Source: Alphaproteobacteria bacterium
Lineage (GTDB): Bacteria > Pseudomonadota > Alphaproteobacteria > Ferrovibrionales > Ferrovibrionaceae
DNA: 64,000 nucleotides
Direction: 5' to 3'
Assembly (NCBI GenBank): GCA_017307375.1
Contig: JAFKFH010000006.1
Location: 186,001-250,000, forward strand
Shown here: piece after piece, positions 1 to 8,192 of the stretch
Layout of the letters: every line of letters begins with the position of its first letter
Position numbering within the stretch: position 1 is the stretch's first letter
Notes under the pieces: model-generated
Told to the model about the DNA's origin: nothing
The model's database searches: none
Seen by the model: the letters and a program-made list of their open reading frames with translations, nothing else
Program-made: the position numbers and the translations under genes

Positions 1-771
1 ATGGCCTTTGCCCTTGCGCTCCCGTTCCAGGGTCATCCGGTACTGGTAGCGGTCGGGGCGATAAAGGATGCGGATATACTCGACCGGCTGCTGGTCGCGG
101 TCGTAGACGGTGCGCACGATCGACAGCAGCGGCGCGCCCACGGCAACACCCAGCGCTGCGGCAACCTTCGGGTCGGCCAGCACCGCGCCGAACGACTGGC
201 GGGCCGAGGCGACCTTGACGCCATTCTGCTCCAGCAGGCTGAGCAGCGGCCGGGTGCCGAGGTCCTCGGCCCCGAAATGGCGGCCGAGATGGCCGGGGAT
301 GAACGAGGTGAGATAGGAAAACGGCGCACCCTCGTGGCTGCGCACCCGCACTGCGCGCTGCACCAGCTCGTTCTGGCCGACCTGCAATTCGCGCTGGACA
401 TCCTCGGTCGGCAACACGAAGCCGAACTCGAGCAGCGCAACCTGGGTCTTGAGGCCCATCTCGAGCAGGTTTTCCAGCAGGCCGTCGATATCGGCCGCCA
501 CCGGCGGCGGCAGGCTGCGCGGCTTGACCCGGGTGCCGGCGCCGCGCCGCCGTTCGACCAGGCCCTGCGCCGCCAGTTCGTTGACCGCGCGCGCGACAGT
601 GATGCGCGAGACACCGAATTCGCGGCTGATTTCCTGTTCGCTCGGCAGCAGGCCGTCGCGTCCGTAATAGCCATGCTCGACCCGCTCGCGCAGCACCAGT
701 TGGATCTGGTGATACAGCGGGGTTGGCAGATCCTGGCTCAGCGGGGCGTCGTCGGTCATCAATGTTTCCAT
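1..771 (-). CDS. GntR-family transcriptional regulator, HutC/UTRA type (3' end cut by window edge)
   Basis: Read leftward, the frame is open from 783 to base 1, giving about 257 residues with no stop, so the C-terminus is probably cut by only a few residues. The N-terminal part is a winged helix: PLYHQIQLVLRERV opens it, followed by LLPSEQEISREFGVSRITVA, the classic GntR recognition region, and a basic RRRGAGTRVK wing. The remainder fits a UTRA effector domain, ending in YDRDQQPVEYIRILYRPDRY. ATG codons at 783, 771 and 759 share the frame and none has a strong ribosome site; 771 is a compromise. It is divergent from an ABC importer operon and probably regulates it; that link is inference from position only. 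Confidence 0.88.
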   Translation of the reverse strand, partial: METLMTDDAPLSQDLPTPLYHQIQLVLRERVEHGYYGRDGLLPSEQEISREFGVSRITVARAVNELAAQGLVERRRGAGTRVKPRSLPPPVAADIDGLLENLLEMGLKTQVALLEFGFVLPTEDVQRELQVGQNELVQRAVRVRSHEGAPFSYLTSFIPGHLGRHFGAEDLGTRPLLSLLEQNGVKVASARQSFGAVLADPKVAAALGVAVGAPLLSIVRTVYDRDQQPVEYIRILYRPDRYQYRMTLERERKGKGH

Positions 772-828
772 CTCGAATGACATAGAGATATAGCAAATAA
801 AGTCGTTCCGTCCAGCGCAATCAGCCTA

Positions 829-958: not shown

Positions 959-1027
959 GTGATCAATAAGCTATAAAGACAAGACATTATGGTGTTTCCC
1001 GTAACGGACATTCACAGGGGGTTGACG

Positions 1028-2029
1028 ATGGGTAGGCTTACTCGGCGCGAATTGTTGGCGGGGGCGGCGGGGCTGGCGGCGGGGATGGCCGTTTCCGATC
1101 TTGCCCTGGCGCAGGCCAAGGAGAAGGTGACGATCCTGACGCCCTTCACCTTCCTGATCGGTTTTGCCGAGCTGCTCTACCCGCTGTCGGCGGGGTACTA
1201 TGCCGAACAGGGGCTCGACGCCACGGTGCTGCCGGCCGGCGGCTCGGCCGCCGCGGTCACCCAGGTGCTGGCCGGCCAGGCCCAGTTCTGCCGTACCGGT
1301 GCCATCGACCTGATGACCGCGGTGTCGCGCGGCGCCCCGCTGGTCGCGATCGCGACCATCGCCCAGGCCTCGACGATCTGGATGATTTCGCCGGCCAAGG
1401 CGCCGATCAACAGCCCGGAGGATTTCAAGGGCAAGACGATCGGCATCATCTCCAAGGCGGGTCTCGCCGAAAACCTGCTCGACATGATGCTGGCGGGTGC
1501 CAAGATCGATCCGAAATCGGTGCCGCGCGAGGCGGTCGGCAACGCCCCCGGCGCCTACAGCCTGATCGAGCAGGGGCGTATCGCGGGCTATCTCGCCTCG
1601 ACCTCGACGGTCCTGGCGCTGAAGGCCGCGGGCACGCCGATCGTCGCCTGGAACACCGACCAGTTCGCGAAGATCCCGGGGCAGGTGCTGGTGACCACTC
1701 GCGAGATGGTCGAGAAGCGGCCGGAGACCTGCCAGAAGTTCCTAAACGCGGTCAACATGGCGGTCACCGAGTTGCTCGATCCCAACAAGATCGACGCGGC
1801 GATCGCCAAGATGAAGCCGCTGGAGATTTCCGACGCCAAGGACCCCGTCGCGGCCAAGGCGGCGTTGCTGGCCGAGCAGAGCTCGTGGTCGCCCGGCGGC
1901 ATCAAGCCCCTGCGCAACGTGCCGGATCGCTTCTCGGTCTGTCGCTTCCTGATGGTGGGGGCGGGCCTGTTGCCGCAAGGGGCGAGCGACCAGGTCTATA
2001 CGAACCAGTTCGCCGTCAAGCTGCCGTGA
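1028..2029 (+). CDS. ABC transporter substrate-binding protein, NMT1/THI5-like, Tat-exported
   Basis: A 333-residue periplasmic binding protein of the NMT1/SsuA type. The start at 1028 is preferred over an in-frame ATG at 989 because CAGGGGG precedes it and it gives a twin-arginine leader: GRLTRRELLAGAAG, a hydrophobic stretch, then an ALAQA cleavage region near residue 28. Mature features typical of the family include FTFLIGFAELLYPLSAGYYAEQ, where such proteins take up the ligand, and repeated segments on changing ligand (FKGKTIGIISKAGLAENL). The stop overlaps the ATPase start, so binding protein, ATPase and permease form one importer. The substrate is not readable; neighbouring amidase and amidohydrolase-fold genes hint at an amide or N-containing acid. 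Confidence 0.88.
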   Translation: MGRLTRRELLAGAAGLAAGMAVSDLALAQAKEKVTILTPFTFLIGFAELLYPLSAGYYAEQGLDATVLPAGGSAAAVTQVLAGQAQFCRTGAIDLMTAVSRGAPLVAIATIAQASTIWMISPAKAPINSPEDFKGKTIGIISKAGLAENLLDMMLAGAKIDPKSVPREAVGNAPGAYSLIEQGRIAGYLASTSTVLALKAAGTPIVAWNTDQFAKIPGQVLVTTREMVEKRPETCQKFLNAVNMAVTELLDPNKIDAAIAKMKPLEISDAKDPVAAKAALLAEQSSWSPGGIKPLRNVPDRFSVCRFLMVGAGLLPQGASDQVYTNQFAVKLP

Positions 2030-2841
2030 CGACGGTACCTGCGGCGGCCCAGGCCGCCGTCAAGATCGCGGTCGACGGGGTCGGCATGGTCTATGGTCGC
2101 GAGCGCAAGGTGCAAGCCCTCGCGCGCGTCGATCTCGACATCGCCGACGGCGAATTCGTCGTGCTGCTCGGCGCTTCGGGCTGCGGCAAGACGACGCTGT
2201 TGCGCATCATCGGTGGGCTGTTGAAGCCCACCGAAGGGGCGATCGTCGTGGATCGGCGGCCGCTGTGGCAGGGCGGGAAGCGCGATGCGGCAGTGGCCGA
2301 CCAGATCGGCTTCGTCTTCCAGGACGCCAATCTCTTTCCCTGGATGACCATCGCCGAGAACATCGCGCTGCCGCTGCGCCTCCGCGGCGCCACGGCGGAT
2401 GCGCGGCGGCAGGTGGCGGGGACGCTGTGCGCCAAGGTCGGCATATCGGGGTTCGAGGATGCCTATCCCAGGCAGCTTTCCGGCGGCATGCGCCAGCGCG
2501 CCGCTATTGCCCGCGCCCTGTCCTACGATCCGTCGATCCTGTTGATGGACGAGCCGTTCGGGGCACTGGACGCGCTGACGCGCGAGCAGATGAACCTCGA
2601 ACTGCAGCGGATCTGGCTGGCCAATCGCGGCACCGTGGTGCTGGTCACCCATTCGATCGCGGAGGCCATCTTCCTGGCCGACCGGATCGTCGTGCTGACG
2701 CCGCGGCCTGGCAAGATCGAAACCATCGTGCCGGTCGGCTTTCCACGGCCGCGCACCATGGCGATCCAGCGCGAACAGGCTTTTCACGAGCTGCAGGACC
2801 GCCTGCGCGACCTGCTGGGGGTCAGTGATCATGTCGACTAG
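2026..2841 (+). CDS. ABC transporter ATP-binding protein, SsuB/TauB type
   Basis: A 271-residue nucleotide-binding subunit. Visible motifs in order are Walker A GASGCGKTT, Q-loop FVFQDANLFPW, signature LSGGMRQRAAIARAL, Walker B ILLMDEPFGALD and the switch histidine in VTHSIAEA. LFPWMT after the Q-loop is typical of the nitrate/sulfonate/taurine importer class. A GTG start at 2026 overlaps the stop of the binding-protein gene (GTGA), and the 3' end overlaps the permease start, so all three are translationally coupled. The frame is open further upstream but that part is antisense-like noise within the preceding gene. Confidence 0.93.
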   Translation: MTTVPAAAQAAVKIAVDGVGMVYGRERKVQALARVDLDIADGEFVVLLGASGCGKTTLLRIIGGLLKPTEGAIVVDRRPLWQGGKRDAAVADQIGFVFQDANLFPWMTIAENIALPLRLRGATADARRQVAGTLCAKVGISGFEDAYPRQLSGGMRQRAAIARALSYDPSILLMDEPFGALDALTREQMNLELQRIWLANRGTVVLVTHSIAEAIFLADRIVVLTPRPGKIETIVPVGFPRPRTMAIQREQAFHELQDRLRDLLGVSDHVD

Positions 2842-3610
2842 GGGAAACCTGCTCACCTGGATCACCACGCCGCTGCTGCTGCTGGTGTTCTTCGTCTGCT
2901 GGGACGTGTACGTCTCGGCATTCCAGGTGTCCCGCTTCGTGCTGCCGCCGCCGCTGGAGGTGCTCAAGGCCTTCTGGGGCCTGCTGATCGAGGCGTCGAC
3001 CTGGCGGCATGCCGCCGTCACGGTCTACGAGACCCTGTTCGGGTTCGTTCTCGCCACGGTGTTCGGTGTCGGGTTGGGCGCCCTGCTCGCCAAGGTCCCG
3101 CTGCTCGAACGCGTGCTCAGCCCCTTCATCATCGCGACCCAGGTCGTGCCGAAGGTCGCGCTGATCCCGCTGTTCATCCTGTGGTTCGGTTTCGGCCCGA
3201 CCTCGAAGATCGTGGTCGCGGCGGTGCTGGCCTTCTTTCCGATCATGGCCAACACCCTGCTCGGCTTCAAATCGATCGAGACCGGCCATCGCGACGTCAT
3301 GCTGTCGCTCAACGCGACATCTGGCGCCCATGCCCGCTTCCTCGAGCTGCCGGCCTCGCTGCCCTACATCATGAGCGGCATGGAGGTCGGCATCGTGCTG
3401 GCGATCATCGGCGCCGTGGTCGGCGAATATCTCGGCGGCAACGTGGGTCTGGGCCATCTCGCCGTCGCCAGCCTCAATTCGTTCCAGGTCGATCTCCTGT
3501 TCGCGACGATCCTGTTGCTGACCGTCATCGGCTTCCTGCTCTACCTCGCCGTCGTCGGGCTGAAGCGCTGGGTGATCCCCTGGCACCAGTCTTCCGGCCA
3601 GGTCGTCTGA
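2831..3610 (+). CDS. ABC transporter permease, SsuC/TauC type
   Basis: A 259-residue inner-membrane protein with about six hydrophobic helices, beginning with a TTPLLLLVFFVCW segment. The cytoplasmic coupling loop is seen around FKSIETGHRDVMLSLNATSG, followed by LPASLPYIMSGMEVGIVLA, the usual EAA-type arrangement of this family. ATG 2831 is chosen because GGGGG lies about ten bases upstream; a GTG at 2825 shares the frame. It overlaps the ATPase gene by 11 bases and partners it. A short gap of 26 bases leads to the first amidohydrolase gene, so importer and enzymes are probably one transcript. Confidence 0.92.
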   Translation: MSTRGNLLTWITTPLLLLVFFVCWDVYVSAFQVSRFVLPPPLEVLKAFWGLLIEASTWRHAAVTVYETLFGFVLATVFGVGLGALLAKVPLLERVLSPFIIATQVVPKVALIPLFILWFGFGPTSKIVVAAVLAFFPIMANTLLGFKSIETGHRDVMLSLNATSGAHARFLELPASLPYIMSGMEVGIVLAIIGAVVGEYLGGNVGLGHLAVASLNSFQVDLLFATILLLTVIGFLLYLAVVGLKRWVIPWHQSSGQVV

Positions 3611-3636: not shown

Positions 3637-4470
3637 ATGAGCGACATCATCGACGTTTCGGTGAATTTCCGACCCAATACCAAGGTCGGCGTCTACGACT
3701 ACCTCAAGATCGACCGCGCTCTGGTCAAGCCCTTCGACCCCGACGGCTATATCGCGGAGATGGACAAGGCAGGCATCGCCATGTCCGGGCTGATCGCGAA
3801 TGTCTCCGCGAACGGCATCGGTGGCGAGGAGCATTTCGTCCGCGCCGAGGAAATCGCCCCCTTCCTGAAGAAATATCCCGACCGCTATTTCGGCTGGGTC
3901 GGCATCAATCCGCTGCGCAAGATGGAGATGGTGCGCTACATCGAGTTCGCGGTGAAGGAACTGGGCTTCAAGGGCGTCCACGTCTACCCGCACTGGTTCG
4001 GCGTGCCGATCAACGACCGCCTCTATTATCCGATCTATGCCAAATGCTGCGAGCTCGGCGTGCCGATCACGCTGCAGGTCGGCACCCATTCGATGCGCTC
4101 GGGCGCCAAATGCGTCGGCCGTCCGATCCTGCTCGACGACGTCGCCTTCGATTTTCCCGAGCTGAAGCTGATCGGGCTGCATCTCGGCGCCCCGTGGCTG
4201 GAAGAAATGGTGATGCTGGCCAAGGCCTACGAGCATGTCTACATCATCGCCGACGCCCATCCGCCGTCGACCTGGGGCAAGCCGCTGCTCGACTACATCG
4301 CCGAGCGCGACTGGGCCAACAAGGACGGTTCGCACAAGGTCATGTGGGGCACCGACTGGCCGGTGCAGACGGTAGCGAAGTCGCTGGCCGAGGTCGACGC
4401 GCTGGGCTTCGCCCCCGAGGTCACGGCGCGGCTGACCGGCGGCAATGCCCGCCGCATCCTGGGCCTGTGA
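3637..4470 (+). CDS. Amidohydrolase-fold protein (COG2159 type), metal site apparently degenerate
   Basis: A 277-residue protein of the amidohydrolase_2 fold, the family of ACMSD, resorcylate decarboxylase and LigJ. The family normally starts with D-x-H-x-H; here it reads DVSVNF, so both histidines are replaced. The third usual histidine (before TG on the central strand) appears as LQVG. The later histidine in LIGLHLGAPW and the aspartate in WGTDWPV are kept. The start at 3637 is preceded by GAGG. It is a clear paralogue of the next gene (shared FPELKLIG, ADAH/CDAH and GTD blocks). With three of five ligands missing, the usual metal-dependent chemistry is doubtful; a metal-free lyase, hydratase or binding role is possible. 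Confidence 0.8.
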   Translation: MSDIIDVSVNFRPNTKVGVYDYLKIDRALVKPFDPDGYIAEMDKAGIAMSGLIANVSANGIGGEEHFVRAEEIAPFLKKYPDRYFGWVGINPLRKMEMVRYIEFAVKELGFKGVHVYPHWFGVPINDRLYYPIYAKCCELGVPITLQVGTHSMRSGAKCVGRPILLDDVAFDFPELKLIGLHLGAPWLEEMVMLAKAYEHVYIIADAHPPSTWGKPLLDYIAERDWANKDGSHKVMWGTDWPVQTVAKSLAEVDALGFAPEVTARLTGGNARRILGL

Positions 4471-4475
4471 CCGCG

Positions 4476-5333
4476 ATGAGCGGCGAGATCAGGGCGATCG
4501 ACACCGTCGTCAACATCTGGACCAGGGAGGCGCTGGCCGGCCGGCCCGACCGCAGCCAGTTCTACACCGGCAAGATCGGGCTGGACCGCGGCACGTTCGA
4601 GGGCATCACCCATGAAGAGATGCTGCGTCGCATGGACGCGGCCGGCATCGAGATCGCCTTCCTGATCGCGGCCAAGGTCGGCCAGCTCGGCCATCCCTCG
4701 TGCTATCACGTGCCCTACGAACTGGTCGCCGACGCGGTCCAGGCCCACCCCGATCGCTTCCGCGGCCTTGCCGGCCTCGATCCGACCGAGGGCATGAGGG
4801 GTGTGCGCGCCTTCGAGCACGCGGTTAAGGAATACGGCTTCATCGGCGGGCATTTCTATCCGCATTGGTACGAGCTCGGCCCCGACCATGCGAAGTGGTA
4901 CCCGTTCTATACCAAGGCCTGCGAACTCGACGTGCCGCTGCAGCTGCAGGTCGGCCAGTCGCTAATCTATGACGAGCGCTACCCCAGGCGCTCGGTCGGC
5001 AGGCCGATCGCGCTCGATGCCGTTGCCTGCGACTTTCCCGAACTGAAGCTGATCGGCATCCATGTCGGCATCCCCTGGACCGAGGAGATGATCGCCATGG
5101 CCTGGAAGCACAAGAACGTCTATATCGGCTGCGACGCGCACAGCCCCAAGCATTGGCCGCCGGCCTTCGTCCACTATCTCAACACCTATGGCCAGGACAA
5201 GGTGCTGTTCGGCACCGACTTCCCGGTCCTGGGGTTCGAGCGGACGATGGCCGAGATCCATGCCCTCGACCTGCGGCCCGGCGTCCTGCCCAAGCTGCTG
5301 CGCGACAACGCCGCCAAGCTCTATCGCCTATGA
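4476..5333 (+). CDS. Amidohydrolase-fold protein (COG2159 type), tandem paralogue
   Basis: A 285-residue paralogue of the preceding gene, starting a few bases after its stop; GTG 4467, overlapping that stop, is an alternative in-frame start. The N-terminal motif is DTVVNIW in place of D-x-H-x-H, and the mid-protein strand again ends LQVG in place of a histidine. LIGIHVGIPW and FGTDFPV retain the remaining two ligand positions. Both copies share HFYPHWY/HVYPHWF, which may form a family-specific site. Tandem order, similar length and matching losses suggest a heteromeric pair or two steps on related substrates. The 3' end overlaps the acid ligase gene (ATGA). Confidence 0.8.
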   Translation: MSGEIRAIDTVVNIWTREALAGRPDRSQFYTGKIGLDRGTFEGITHEEMLRRMDAAGIEIAFLIAAKVGQLGHPSCYHVPYELVADAVQAHPDRFRGLAGLDPTEGMRGVRAFEHAVKEYGFIGGHFYPHWYELGPDHAKWYPFYTKACELDVPLQLQVGQSLIYDERYPRRSVGRPIALDAVACDFPELKLIGIHVGIPWTEEMIAMAWKHKNVYIGCDAHSPKHWPPAFVHYLNTYGQDKVLFGTDFPVLGFERTMAEIHALDLRPGVLPKLLRDNAAKLYRL

Positions 5334-6754
5334 TGAACCTGGCCGCCGCGCTGGACGATCATGCCCGCAGCCGCGGCGACCGCATCGCGGTCGTCGCCGG
5401 CGAGGCGCAGGTCACCTATCGCGACTTCGCCCGCCTGGTGGTCGATGCGGCCGGCTGGCTGGCTGCCCAAGGCTTGCGGCCCGGCGACGTCGCCGGGCTG
5501 TGGCTGAAGGATACCATCCAGCATCTGGCGCTGATCTACGGCTGCGCCCGCGCCGGGGTCGTCATGCTGCCGCTCGACTGGAAATGGACGCCGGCGGAAG
5601 CCGAACGCGTGGCCGTCCATTTCGGGGCCAGGCTCGTCGTCACCGATCCCGGCGCGCCGCCGCTCGGCGTGACCACGGTCGCGGTCGAGGGCTTCCCGCC
5701 GGCCGAGGCACCGCTTGCCGCCGGGGCCGACGACCTGCTGCTGCTGTCGCTTTCGTCGGGCACGACCGGTCGGCCCAAGGGGCCGGCGGTGTCGCACCGG
5801 CAATTCTTCCGCCGCTTCATGACGCACTGGCTGCATCTCGGTTTCACCGATGCCGATCGCTTCCTGTGCGCCACGCCGCTCTATTTCGGCGGCGGACGGA
5901 CCTTTGCGATGTCGATGCTGTTCACCGGCGCCGCGGTGGTGCTGGCCTCGCCGGGCCTGTCGGCTGCCGATCTCGTCGATATCGTCGCGCGCCGGCGCAT
6001 CACCTGCCTGTTCCTGGTGCCGACGCAACTGCGCCGGCTGCTGGCGCTGGATGATGCCGCCCTGGCGCCGTTGCGCGCCCTGCGCCTGCTGTTTTCGAGC
6101 GGGGCGCCGCTGACCGTCGCCGAGCGACAGGAGATCGCGGCGCGCCTCTGCCCGCGGTTCCACGAATATTATGCCTCGACCGAGGGCGGCGGGGTGTCGC
6201 TGCTGACGCCGGACGATCTGGTCCGCCGGCCCGATTCGGTCGGCCGGCCGGTCTTCGGCGTCGAGGTCGAGGTGGTCGACGACGACGACCGGCCGCTGGC
6301 CCCCGACGCCGTCGGCCGCATCCGTTATCGCGGGCCGGGCGTCGCCACCGGCTATCACCTCGACCCCGAGGCATCGCGCGAACGGTTTCGCGACGGCTGG
6401 TTCTATCCCGGCGACCTCGCCGCGATCGACGGGGACGGCTTCGTGTCGCTGCGCGGCCGTCGCGAGGATGTGATCATCCGCGGCGGCGTCAACATCTATC
6501 CGGCCGAGATCGAGGCGGTGCTGACCGCCCATCCCGCCGTGGTGGAGGCGGCCATCGTGCCGCGCGCCTCCGCCACGCTGGGCGAGGAGGTCGCGGCCTT
6601 CGTCGTTCCCCGCACTGCGGTGACGGCCGACGCGCTGGCGGCCTGGTGCGCCGAGCGGCTGGCGCCCTACAAGCGGCCGGCGGCCATCGTCCTGCTCGCC
6701 GAACTGCCGCGCAACAGCGCGGGCAAGGTCCTGAAGACGAGGTTGTCGGCATGA
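5330..6754 (+). CDS. AMP-forming acyl-CoA synthetase / acid-CoA ligase
   Basis: A 474-residue ANL-superfamily ligase that would adenylate a carboxylic acid and pass it to CoA. Signature motifs are all present: phosphate-binding LSSGTTGRPKG near residue 140, YYASTEGGG, YPGDLAAIDGDG, the hinge GRREDVIIRGG with NIYPAEIE, and the C-terminal catalytic lysine in PRNSAGKVLK. It is somewhat shorter than typical long-chain ligases and resembles benzoate/cyclohexane-carboxylate type enzymes, but the substrate cannot be read. ATG 5330 overlaps the stop of the amidohydrolase gene, and its own stop overlaps the next small ORF, placing it mid-operon. Confidence 0.9.
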   Translation: MMNLAAALDDHARSRGDRIAVVAGEAQVTYRDFARLVVDAAGWLAAQGLRPGDVAGLWLKDTIQHLALIYGCARAGVVMLPLDWKWTPAEAERVAVHFGARLVVTDPGAPPLGVTTVAVEGFPPAEAPLAAGADDLLLLSLSSGTTGRPKGPAVSHRQFFRRFMTHWLHLGFTDADRFLCATPLYFGGGRTFAMSMLFTGAAVVLASPGLSAADLVDIVARRRITCLFLVPTQLRRLLALDDAALAPLRALRLLFSSGAPLTVAERQEIAARLCPRFHEYYASTEGGGVSLLTPDDLVRRPDSVGRPVFGVEVEVVDDDDRPLAPDAVGRIRYRGPGVATGYHLDPEASRERFRDGWFYPGDLAAIDGDGFVSLRGRREDVIIRGGVNIYPAEIEAVLTAHPAVVEAAIVPRASATLGEEVAAFVVPRTAVTADALAAWCAERLAPYKRPAAIVLLAELPRNSAGKVLKTRLSA

Positions 6755-6915
6755 GCGACGATCTGGAAAAGGCCATCGCGGCGGTCATCGCCGCCCGGGC
6801 CCCCGAGGGTCAGGGGCGCGAGGCGGCGGTGGCCGAAGCCGCCCGGCTGGCCCGCGACGTCGAAAGCTATCGCCACCTGCTGGGGCCGCAGCACAAGCCG
6901 GCGGTGCGCCGGTGA
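6751..6915 (+). CDS. Small protein, possible AtzG/GatC-like amidase subunit
   Basis: A 54-residue frame squeezed between ligase and amidase with ATGA at its start and GTGA at its end, which argues that it is translated. The sequence is a single charged, alanine-rich helix pair (LEKAIAAVIAARAP, then EAAVAEAARLARDVESYRHL) without membrane segment or cysteine. AtzE-type amidases, such as 1-carboxybiuret hydrolase, are known to need a small GatC-like partner AtzG encoded just upstream, and this ORF has exactly that place and size. Direct similarity to AtzG is weak by eye, so the assignment rests on context. Confidence 0.55.
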   Translation: MSDDLEKAIAAVIAARAPEGQGREAAVAEAARLARDVESYRHLLGPQHKPAVRR

Positions 6916-8192
6916 TTCGCGCCGCGGCTGCCGCGCTGGCCCGCGGCGAGACGACGGCCCGGCGGCTGGTCGACGAGCGGCTGGCCCGGATCGACCCGGC
7001 ACAGAACATCTTTGCCGAAGTGTTCGCCGACCAGGCGCGCACGGCTGCCGATCGCTTCGATGCCGGCCGGCGGACCGGTCGCCTCCTCGACGGTCTGCCG
7101 CTGGCGCACAAGGATATCTTCTGCCTGCCCGGCCGCCAGCCCGGCTGCGGGCTGCAGCCCGGGCGGCTCGCGCTCGACCTGCCGCCGTCGCGCGCCGCGG
7201 CGAATGTCGGCGGCATCACGCTCGGCATGGTCAACCTCGCCGAATATGCGCTGGGCACGACCGGCACCAATCATTTCCTCGGCGATGTCGCCAACCCGCG
7301 GGCGCCCGGCCATATCACCGGCGCATCGTCGTCCGGCTCCGGCGCGGTGATCGCGGCCGGCCTGGCTTTCGGCTCGCTCGGGACCGATTCCGGCGGCTCG
7401 ATCAGGCTGCCGGCCGGCTTCTGCGGCGTGGTCGGGCTCAAGCCGACCGCCGGCGCCGTCCCGGCCGAGGGCATCTTCCCGTTGTCCTGGTCGCTCGACG
7501 AGGTCGGGCCGATGGCGGCGACGGTCGACGATTGTGCGATCCTCTTTGCTGCGGCGAAGGGCGAAACCGCGCCGCCGGCCATTACCCCCGATGTCGCCGG
7601 CTTGCGGGTCGGCGTGCCGAGGTCCTATTACCTGGACGATCTCGATTCGGCCGTTACCGACGCTTATCGCGGCGGCCTGGCGCGGCTCGAGGCCGCGGGC
7701 GCGCGGCTGGTCGATGTGGCGGTGGTCGAGGAACCAAGGATCCGTTCGCTGGTGCGGCTGATCATGCGCAGCGAATTGTCGGCGGTGCATCGCCGGCGGA
7801 TGGCGGCGAACCCCGAACTCTACCCGCTGGCGGTGGCCAAGTTCTTCACTGCGGGCGAAGGGCTGCTTGCCGCCGACTACATCGATGCGCTGCGCCTGCG
7901 CCCGATCCTGACCGCGCAAGCGCTGGCCACCACCTATTCGCAGGTCGACCTGCTGGCAACGCCGACCGCCCCGGTGACCGCCCCGCGCTACGACGCGCTG
8001 ACCGATGCCGGCGATCCGGCGATCTGGGCGGCGATCACCCGGTTGATGCACATGACCCAGCCCGCGACCTTTTTCGGGTTCCCGGCCCTGTCGGTACCGC
8101 TGGCGACCGGCGGCCCGCCGATCGGCCTGCAACTCATTGGACCGCCCGGCGCCGAGACCGTGCTGTTCCGGGCCGGGGCCGCCCTGGCCTAA
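6912..8192 (+). CDS. Amidase, AtzE/GatA signature family
   Basis: A 426-residue amidase-signature enzyme that would hydrolyse a C-N amide bond. The Ser-cisSer-Lys triad is visible as K67 in LAHKDIF, S139 in GASSSGSGA and the nucleophile S163 in GTDSGGSIRLPAG. GTG 6912 overlaps the stop of the small preceding ORF. Length and N-terminal ARGETTARRLVDERLARI are usual for AtzE-like members. Together with the small ORF it may form a GatC-GatA-like heteromer. In context it could release an acid for the ligase upstream, but order of action is not deducible. Confidence 0.9.
   Translation: MIRAAAAALARGETTARRLVDERLARIDPAQNIFAEVFADQARTAADRFDAGRRTGRLLDGLPLAHKDIFCLPGRQPGCGLQPGRLALDLPPSRAAANVGGITLGMVNLAEYALGTTGTNHFLGDVANPRAPGHITGASSSGSGAVIAAGLAFGSLGTDSGGSIRLPAGFCGVVGLKPTAGAVPAEGIFPLSWSLDEVGPMAATVDDCAILFAAAKGETAPPAITPDVAGLRVGVPRSYYLDDLDSAVTDAYRGGLARLEAAGARLVDVAVVEEPRIRSLVRLIMRSELSAVHRRRMAANPELYPLAVAKFFTAGEGLLAADYIDALRLRPILTAQALATTYSQVDLLATPTAPVTAPRYDALTDAGDPAIWAAITRLMHMTQPATFFGFPALSVPLATGGPPIGLQLIGPPGAETVLFRAGAALA

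Follow-up and report, generated by a model that had tools for sequence, protein, structure and literature searches.

The closest sequence and fold matches of the two proteins described here, A and B, are the cog2159 decarboxylases, LigJ and BB4693. The cog2159 decarboxylases and hydratases, i.e. LigW, the gamma-resorcylate and 2,3-DHB decarboxylases, iso-orotate decarboxylase (IDCase), ACMSD and LigJ, belong to the same Pfam family as A and B, adopt the same barrel and have the beta6 histidine and beta8 aspartate in common with them. LigW (5-carboxyvanillate decarboxylase), IDCase and gamma-RSD are among the nearest characterised relatives. In IDCase the metal ligands are two beta1 histidines, a beta5 histidine and the beta8 aspartate; the beta6 histidine and an arginine bind the substrate carboxylate, and the aspartate is the proton donor (PMC6305744). 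The best sequence match is BB4693 from Bordetella bronchiseptica (PDB 3irs and 3k4w; E 3e-28 with the profile), an uncharacterised protein from a neighbouring group, of similar length and with a high TM-score of 0.78/0.79 for B, on which our literature search found no paper. The canonical ligands are missing from BB4693 as well, but it differs from A and B in having RxR (beta1), Met (beta5) and a GTAYP motif without the beta8 aspartate, and in a quick tree of 70 rows its relative L200 sits on a long branch apart from the A/B clade. LigI, the 2-pyrone-4,6-dicarboxylate lactonase of cog3618, performs metal-independent hydrolysis on the amidohydrolase fold with a beta8 aspartate. It retains the beta1 histidines, which are replaced in A and B, and its COG is probably not that of A and B. 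Structures of the cog2159 type dominate all fold matches of A and B, and for A a probable PDC hydrolase, 4i6k, comes at rank 45. LigI has served as a model for a metal-independent hydrolase (PMC7979712), and the literature that we searched on metal-independent amidohydrolases gave only indirect mentions of it. In NagA of E. coli and V. cholerae the HxH motif is replaced as in A and B, there by QxN, with one metal retained in the E. coli enzyme (PMC6016474). NagA still binds one metal and, unlike A and B, carries an extra beta-barrel domain and belongs to another subfamily. In view of the LigI, NagA and BB4693 precedents, neither ligand loss nor metal-free catalysis would be new for this fold, and the suggestion in the initial annotation that a metal-free reaction would be so is not supported. 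What is new is that a lineage has been defined, together with its signature and the operons in which it occurs. We found no curated NCBIfam family for B or its relatives; of 42 members, a single one weakly matches the 4-sulfomuconolactone hydrolase model NF042924 (E 4e-4).

Two PF04909 proteins in an uptake operon

The window, i.e. the whole stretch of 64,000 nucleotides that was analysed, contains at 3637-5333 two complete plus-strand genes, A followed by B. Their surroundings are as follows.

1..783, minus strand: GntR/UTRA-family regulator (Pfam GntR and UTRA), divergent from the operon and passing the window start; likely regulator
989..2029, plus strand: NMT1/THI5-like substrate-binding protein of an ABC importer (PF09084, E 7.8e-34)
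1885..2841, plus strand: ABC importer ATPase (PF00005, E 9.7e-35), true start probably downstream, near 2014
2825..3610, plus strand: ABC importer permease (PF00528, E 4e-25)
3637-4470, plus strand: protein A gene, 277 aa, deep-branching PF04909 paralogue without HxH and without the beta5 His
4476-5333, plus strand: protein B gene, 285 aa, from a widespread family of orthologues, signature V-x-N / H / Q / H / D
5330..6754, plus strand: AMP-binding acyl-CoA ligase (PF00501, E 3.7e-70), overlapping the B stop by 4 bases
6912..8192, plus strand: amidase of the amidase-signature family (PF01425, E 8e-71), probable operon end

B could also start at an in-frame GTG at 4467. The two proteins are 38% identical, and both match PF04909 (Amidohydro_2) well above its gathering cut-off of 26.4 bits (A: 131.3 bits, E 8e-38; B: 153.0 bits, E 2e-44). 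Their AlphaFold2 models are of high confidence (pLDDT 94.4 for B and 86.5 for A) and present the (beta/alpha)8 barrel of the amidohydrolase fold, with Foldseek matches to cog2159 structures at a probability of 1.00. The fold originally claimed for both proteins is thus borne out, and the Pfam matches of the neighbours likewise place A and B between an importer and an acid ligase. Between ligase and amidase, a 54-codon ORF at 6751-6915 has no Pfam match; by its position, it could encode an AtzG-like small amidase subunit.

The A-B pair is rare, as it was found in only one other genome, G006 (locus L095), from another genus of the same family. There, importer, A (59% identity), B (68%) and ligase stand in identical order, and the UTRA regulator (47% identical) also adjoins the operon. 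No further A orthologue was found in 18 members of the order, family included, and 385 genomes of the class, and viral contigs searched with the A profile gave no match. B, in contrast to the rare pair, is widespread: our scan of genome contigs yielded 80 loci with B relatives (61–78% identity) in Alpha-, Beta- and Gammaproteobacteria. An acyl-CoA ligase resembling that of the window is present at 51 or more of these loci (43 directly downstream of B), an acyl-CoA dehydrogenase in at least 37 (19 directly upstream of B), a tripartite-transporter receptor in at least 34, an isochorismatase-family hydrolase in at least 24, an NMT1-type binding protein in at least 20 and a CoA transferase in at least 11, all of these being lower bounds because flanks reach about 6 kb at most and many contigs end sooner. 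Pfam was used to check the families of the ligase, binding protein, dehydrogenase, isochorismatase and receptor; the CoA transferases were assigned by our own reading of the sequences. Annotated plasmid records show the same neighbours around B relatives. As B usually stands beside an acyl-CoA ligase or a CoA transferase, A and B probably act in CoA-dependent catabolism of an acid or amide. The operons of the lineage are CoA-based, and this sets them apart from the cog2159 decarboxylases. In the window, the amidase stands where other loci have the isochorismatase-family hydrolase, and A occupies the place that the acyl-CoA dehydrogenase has in 19 related loci. An orthologous dehydrogenase is absent from both A-carrying genomes (best match 38%). 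Rhizobium-type operons have neither A nor this dehydrogenase nearby, so A is not simply a replacement for it.

Residues at the barrel centre and their conservation

The residues of interest, placed by strand ends in the AlphaFold2 models and by alignment columns, are listed below.

3658..3666, plus strand: Ser8-x-Asn10 of A, beta1, where His-x-His is expected (sequence and alignment)
3979..3981, plus strand: His115 of A, beta4, aligned with the HxH-outgroup Lys (GFKFHP; alignment)
4075..4077, plus strand: Gln147 of A, beta5, substituting the ligand His (sequence and alignment)
4180..4182, plus strand: His182 of A, beta6, kept (sequence and alignment)
4354..4356, plus strand: Asp240 of A, beta8, kept (sequence and alignment)
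4506..4514, plus strand: Val11-x-Asn13 of B, beta1, where His-x-His is expected (78/80 and 76/80 orthologues)
4851..4853, plus strand: His126 of B, beta4, candidate surrogate ligand or substrate anchor (80/80 orthologues)
4947..4949, plus strand: Gln158 of B, beta5, substituting the ligand His (78/80 orthologues)
5061..5063, plus strand: His196 of B, beta6 (80/80 orthologues)
5217..5219, plus strand: Asp248 of B, beta8, proposed general acid/base (80/80 orthologues; equivalent to the Asp with this role in IDCase, PMC6305744)

The replacements first read from the sequence are present as quoted. The D-x-H-x-H opening has become SxN in A (DVSVN) and VxN in B (DTVVN), the mid-barrel histidine is a glutamine in both (ITLQVG and LQLQVG), and the later histidine (LIGLHLG and LIGIHVG) and aspartate (WGTD and FGTD) are kept. 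In the model of B, V11-x-N13 ends strand 1, H126 lies in strand 4, Q158 ends strand 5, H196 is just past strand 6, D220 and H222 are past strand 7 and D248 is past strand 8; the equivalent residues in the model of A are S8-x-N10, H115, Q147, H182, D206/H208 and D240. According to structure prediction of the single proteins, the replaced and kept residues thus lie where the family has its ligands, at the C-terminal ends of strands 1, 5, 6 and 8.

Compared with the cog2159 decarboxylases, A and B lack the beta1 HxH and the beta5 ligand histidine and have the beta6 histidine and beta8 aspartate. These relatives use the beta6 histidine for the substrate carboxylate and not for metal. All three neutral ligands are therefore gone from A and B, and what remains is the acid/base pair. 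The initial annotation had counted three lost ligands out of five; three are indeed replaced, but the nearest characterised relatives use four. By sequence position, neither protein has an arginine 11 residues after the beta6 histidine, unlike IDCase, gamma-RSD and LigW. The carboxylate-binding arginine has no counterpart at that spacing, and a plain ortho-decarboxylase is thus not favoured.

In the 80 orthologues of B, the less variable positions also include H130 (79/80), D220 and H222 (80/80 each), and such near-invariance, with the counts listed above, indicates that the pattern is not due to chance. Remoter relatives, down to about 40% identity and including haloarchaeal plasmids, mostly align with the same residue set, so that the signature is common across B orthologues and most wider relatives. 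The informative exceptions are L130 and L138 with Ser at beta5, L076 with His at that position, L138 also with His as the second beta1 residue, and the haloarchaeal L137 with Leu at beta4. L138 is encoded on plasmid pAK1 of Paracoccus sp. AK26, where it adjoins genes for an acyl-CoA dehydrogenase, an enoyl-CoA hydratase and a CoA transferase; with one beta1 histidine left, it is possibly an intermediate form.

Phylogeny of the lineage and alternative readings

A maximum-likelihood tree was computed for 48 sequences after removal of the trait columns. One fully supported branch splits five HxH sequences from the 43 without HxH, and a single change hence explains the distribution of the motif. 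The 70-row quick tree requires three changes, further remote groups being included in it. A is paired with its G006 orthologue (100/100), and the two share a long stem outside the B clade of 23 rows (99/98). Both proteins lie on the ligand-less side of the tree, which indicates that they belong to one clade in which H-x-H was lost before their split, that the shared losses were inherited and not parallel, and that A is an old paralogue recruited beside B. Parallel loss in a local duplication is ruled out by the tree.

The HxH outgroup (L178-L199 except L199) comprises the nearest metal-competent relatives of the lineage; its motifs are AIDxHTHAE..., GFKFHP with the beta4 lysine, and HTGQTG or HTGHSG. 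A sister clade (L088, L089, L091, L125-L129, L175 and L177; motifs IIDAWAQHPT / CTQIGHTGP / GGHIGYPWT / FGTNYP) has W-x-Q at beta1, Arg at beta4, Gln at beta5, His at beta6 and Asn at beta8, so that the beta8 aspartate is lost too. With essentially no canonical ligand left, it is a stronger case than A and B themselves, and its want of a plausible canonical site favours an ancestrally metal-free state. Ligand-poor proteins also form the branch of L090, L176 and L199, with NxR, SxR or AxR at beta1, Pro for the beta6 His, Ser or Ala for the beta8 Asp, and the beta5 His kept. A third divergent PF04909 protein, L143 (G000:C5:2941-3621), is encoded on the same contig about 182 kb upstream of the window and carries ExS, Tyr, Leu and Ser at beta1, beta5, beta6 and beta8, respectively.

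As the main alternative, the metal could have shifted to one side of the barrel, held by the beta4 histidine (H126/H115), the beta5 glutamine, the beta6 histidine and the beta8 aspartate, in which case A and B would still be metal-dependent hydrolases comparable to the single-metal NagA. This is rather doubtful. H126, in the column of the outgroup lysine, is invariant and could hold a metal together with the equally invariant H196 and D248, and L076 (at beta5) and L138 (at beta1) each retain one extra histidine. However, relatives differ at beta5, with Ser in L130 and L138 and His in L076, the H126 position is Leu in L137, and the sister clade has Arg at beta4 and Asn at beta8. A NagA-type single-metal site consists of the beta5 and beta6 histidines, both retained in NagA, plus an acidic beta4 ligand; A and B do not match this set, as they have Gln at beta5 and His at beta4. 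That a protein without HxH can bind one metal is nevertheless documented for the QxN forms of E. coli and V. cholerae NagA (PMC6016474).

Protein A might also be non-catalytic, as a pseudoenzyme partner, or its gene might be decaying, with B as the sole enzyme. Its long stem in the tree would fit, as would the DAF and PFENE of the G006 orthologue for the otherwise conserved DAH and PWxEE. However, the catalytic candidates N10, H115, H119, Q147, H182 and D240 are retained in both A proteins. Moreover, comparison of the window with G006 by the Nei-Gojobori method gave dN 0.35 and dS 1.15 for A, dN 0.26 and dS 1.12 for B, and dN 0.43 and dS 1.28 for the ligase, the dS values being high and imprecise. 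With a dN/dS of about 0.30, similar to that of the ligase and transporter genes, A is under purifying selection and plainly constrained. We therefore consider a pseudoenzyme unlikely, and gene decay is rejected on the basis of dN/dS and conservation. It had been argued that the matching losses speak for selection and against decay. Both genes are under selection, B with its 80 orthologues and A by its dN and dS, but the matching losses are not independent evidence, since the ancestor was already ligand-less. Finally, the idea that A and B are complementary halves of a heteromeric enzyme with a composite active site is suggested by their adjacency, probable translational coupling and identical order in two genera, but it is very improbable, as B occurs without A in 80/80 orthologous loci, each protein has the full conserved residue set and A is a deep paralogue and not a split copy.

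Proposed metal-free catalysis and its meaning

The best reading of these data is metal-free acid/base catalysis by A and B, and the lineage probably works without the usual metal. On balance, we favour the view that both proteins are active enzymes of a cog2159-type PF04909 lineage which lost its canonical ligands once, before the A/B split, and that B serves in an operon for uptake and breakdown of an acid or amide. The ABC (or, elsewhere, tripartite) importer would take up a carboxylic acid or amide, the amidase or isochorismatase-type hydrolase would release the acid, and the ligase or CoA transferase would activate it, with B acting before or after CoA activation. The beta8 aspartate (D248 in B, D240 in A), partnered by the beta6 histidine (H196/H182), could be the proton shuttle, and the carboxamides of the beta1 Asn and beta5 Gln, with the beta4 His, could take over from a metal in polarising the substrate carbonyl or carboxylate. 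The reaction would most likely be hydrolytic (lactone, thioester or amide) or a hydration/dehydration. A, as a rare ancient paralogue recruited to the operon, may act on a related intermediate, in an extra step or in one that stands in for another. More tentatively, it is possible that in an unnamed and widespread lineage of enzymes with the amidohydrolase fold a carboxamide/His network (beta1 Asn or Gln, beta5 Gln, beta4 His or Arg) has taken the place of the metal, and that the lineage catalyses a metal-free, undescribed step of CoA-dependent catabolism, A and B then performing successive steps in the two genomes that have both.

PF04909 proteins are usually described as metal-dependent hydrolases. 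This lineage and several sister groups conserve a residue set that is unable to form the canonical site, and assigning a function to it would correct the annotation of proteins in many Proteobacteria and some haloarchaea. B is the more promising target for experiments, since its orthologues in CoA-ligase operons are numerous, whereas the A-B pair is rare. The lineage would show how a classic metalloenzyme scaffold stays functional after the loss of its metal ligands.
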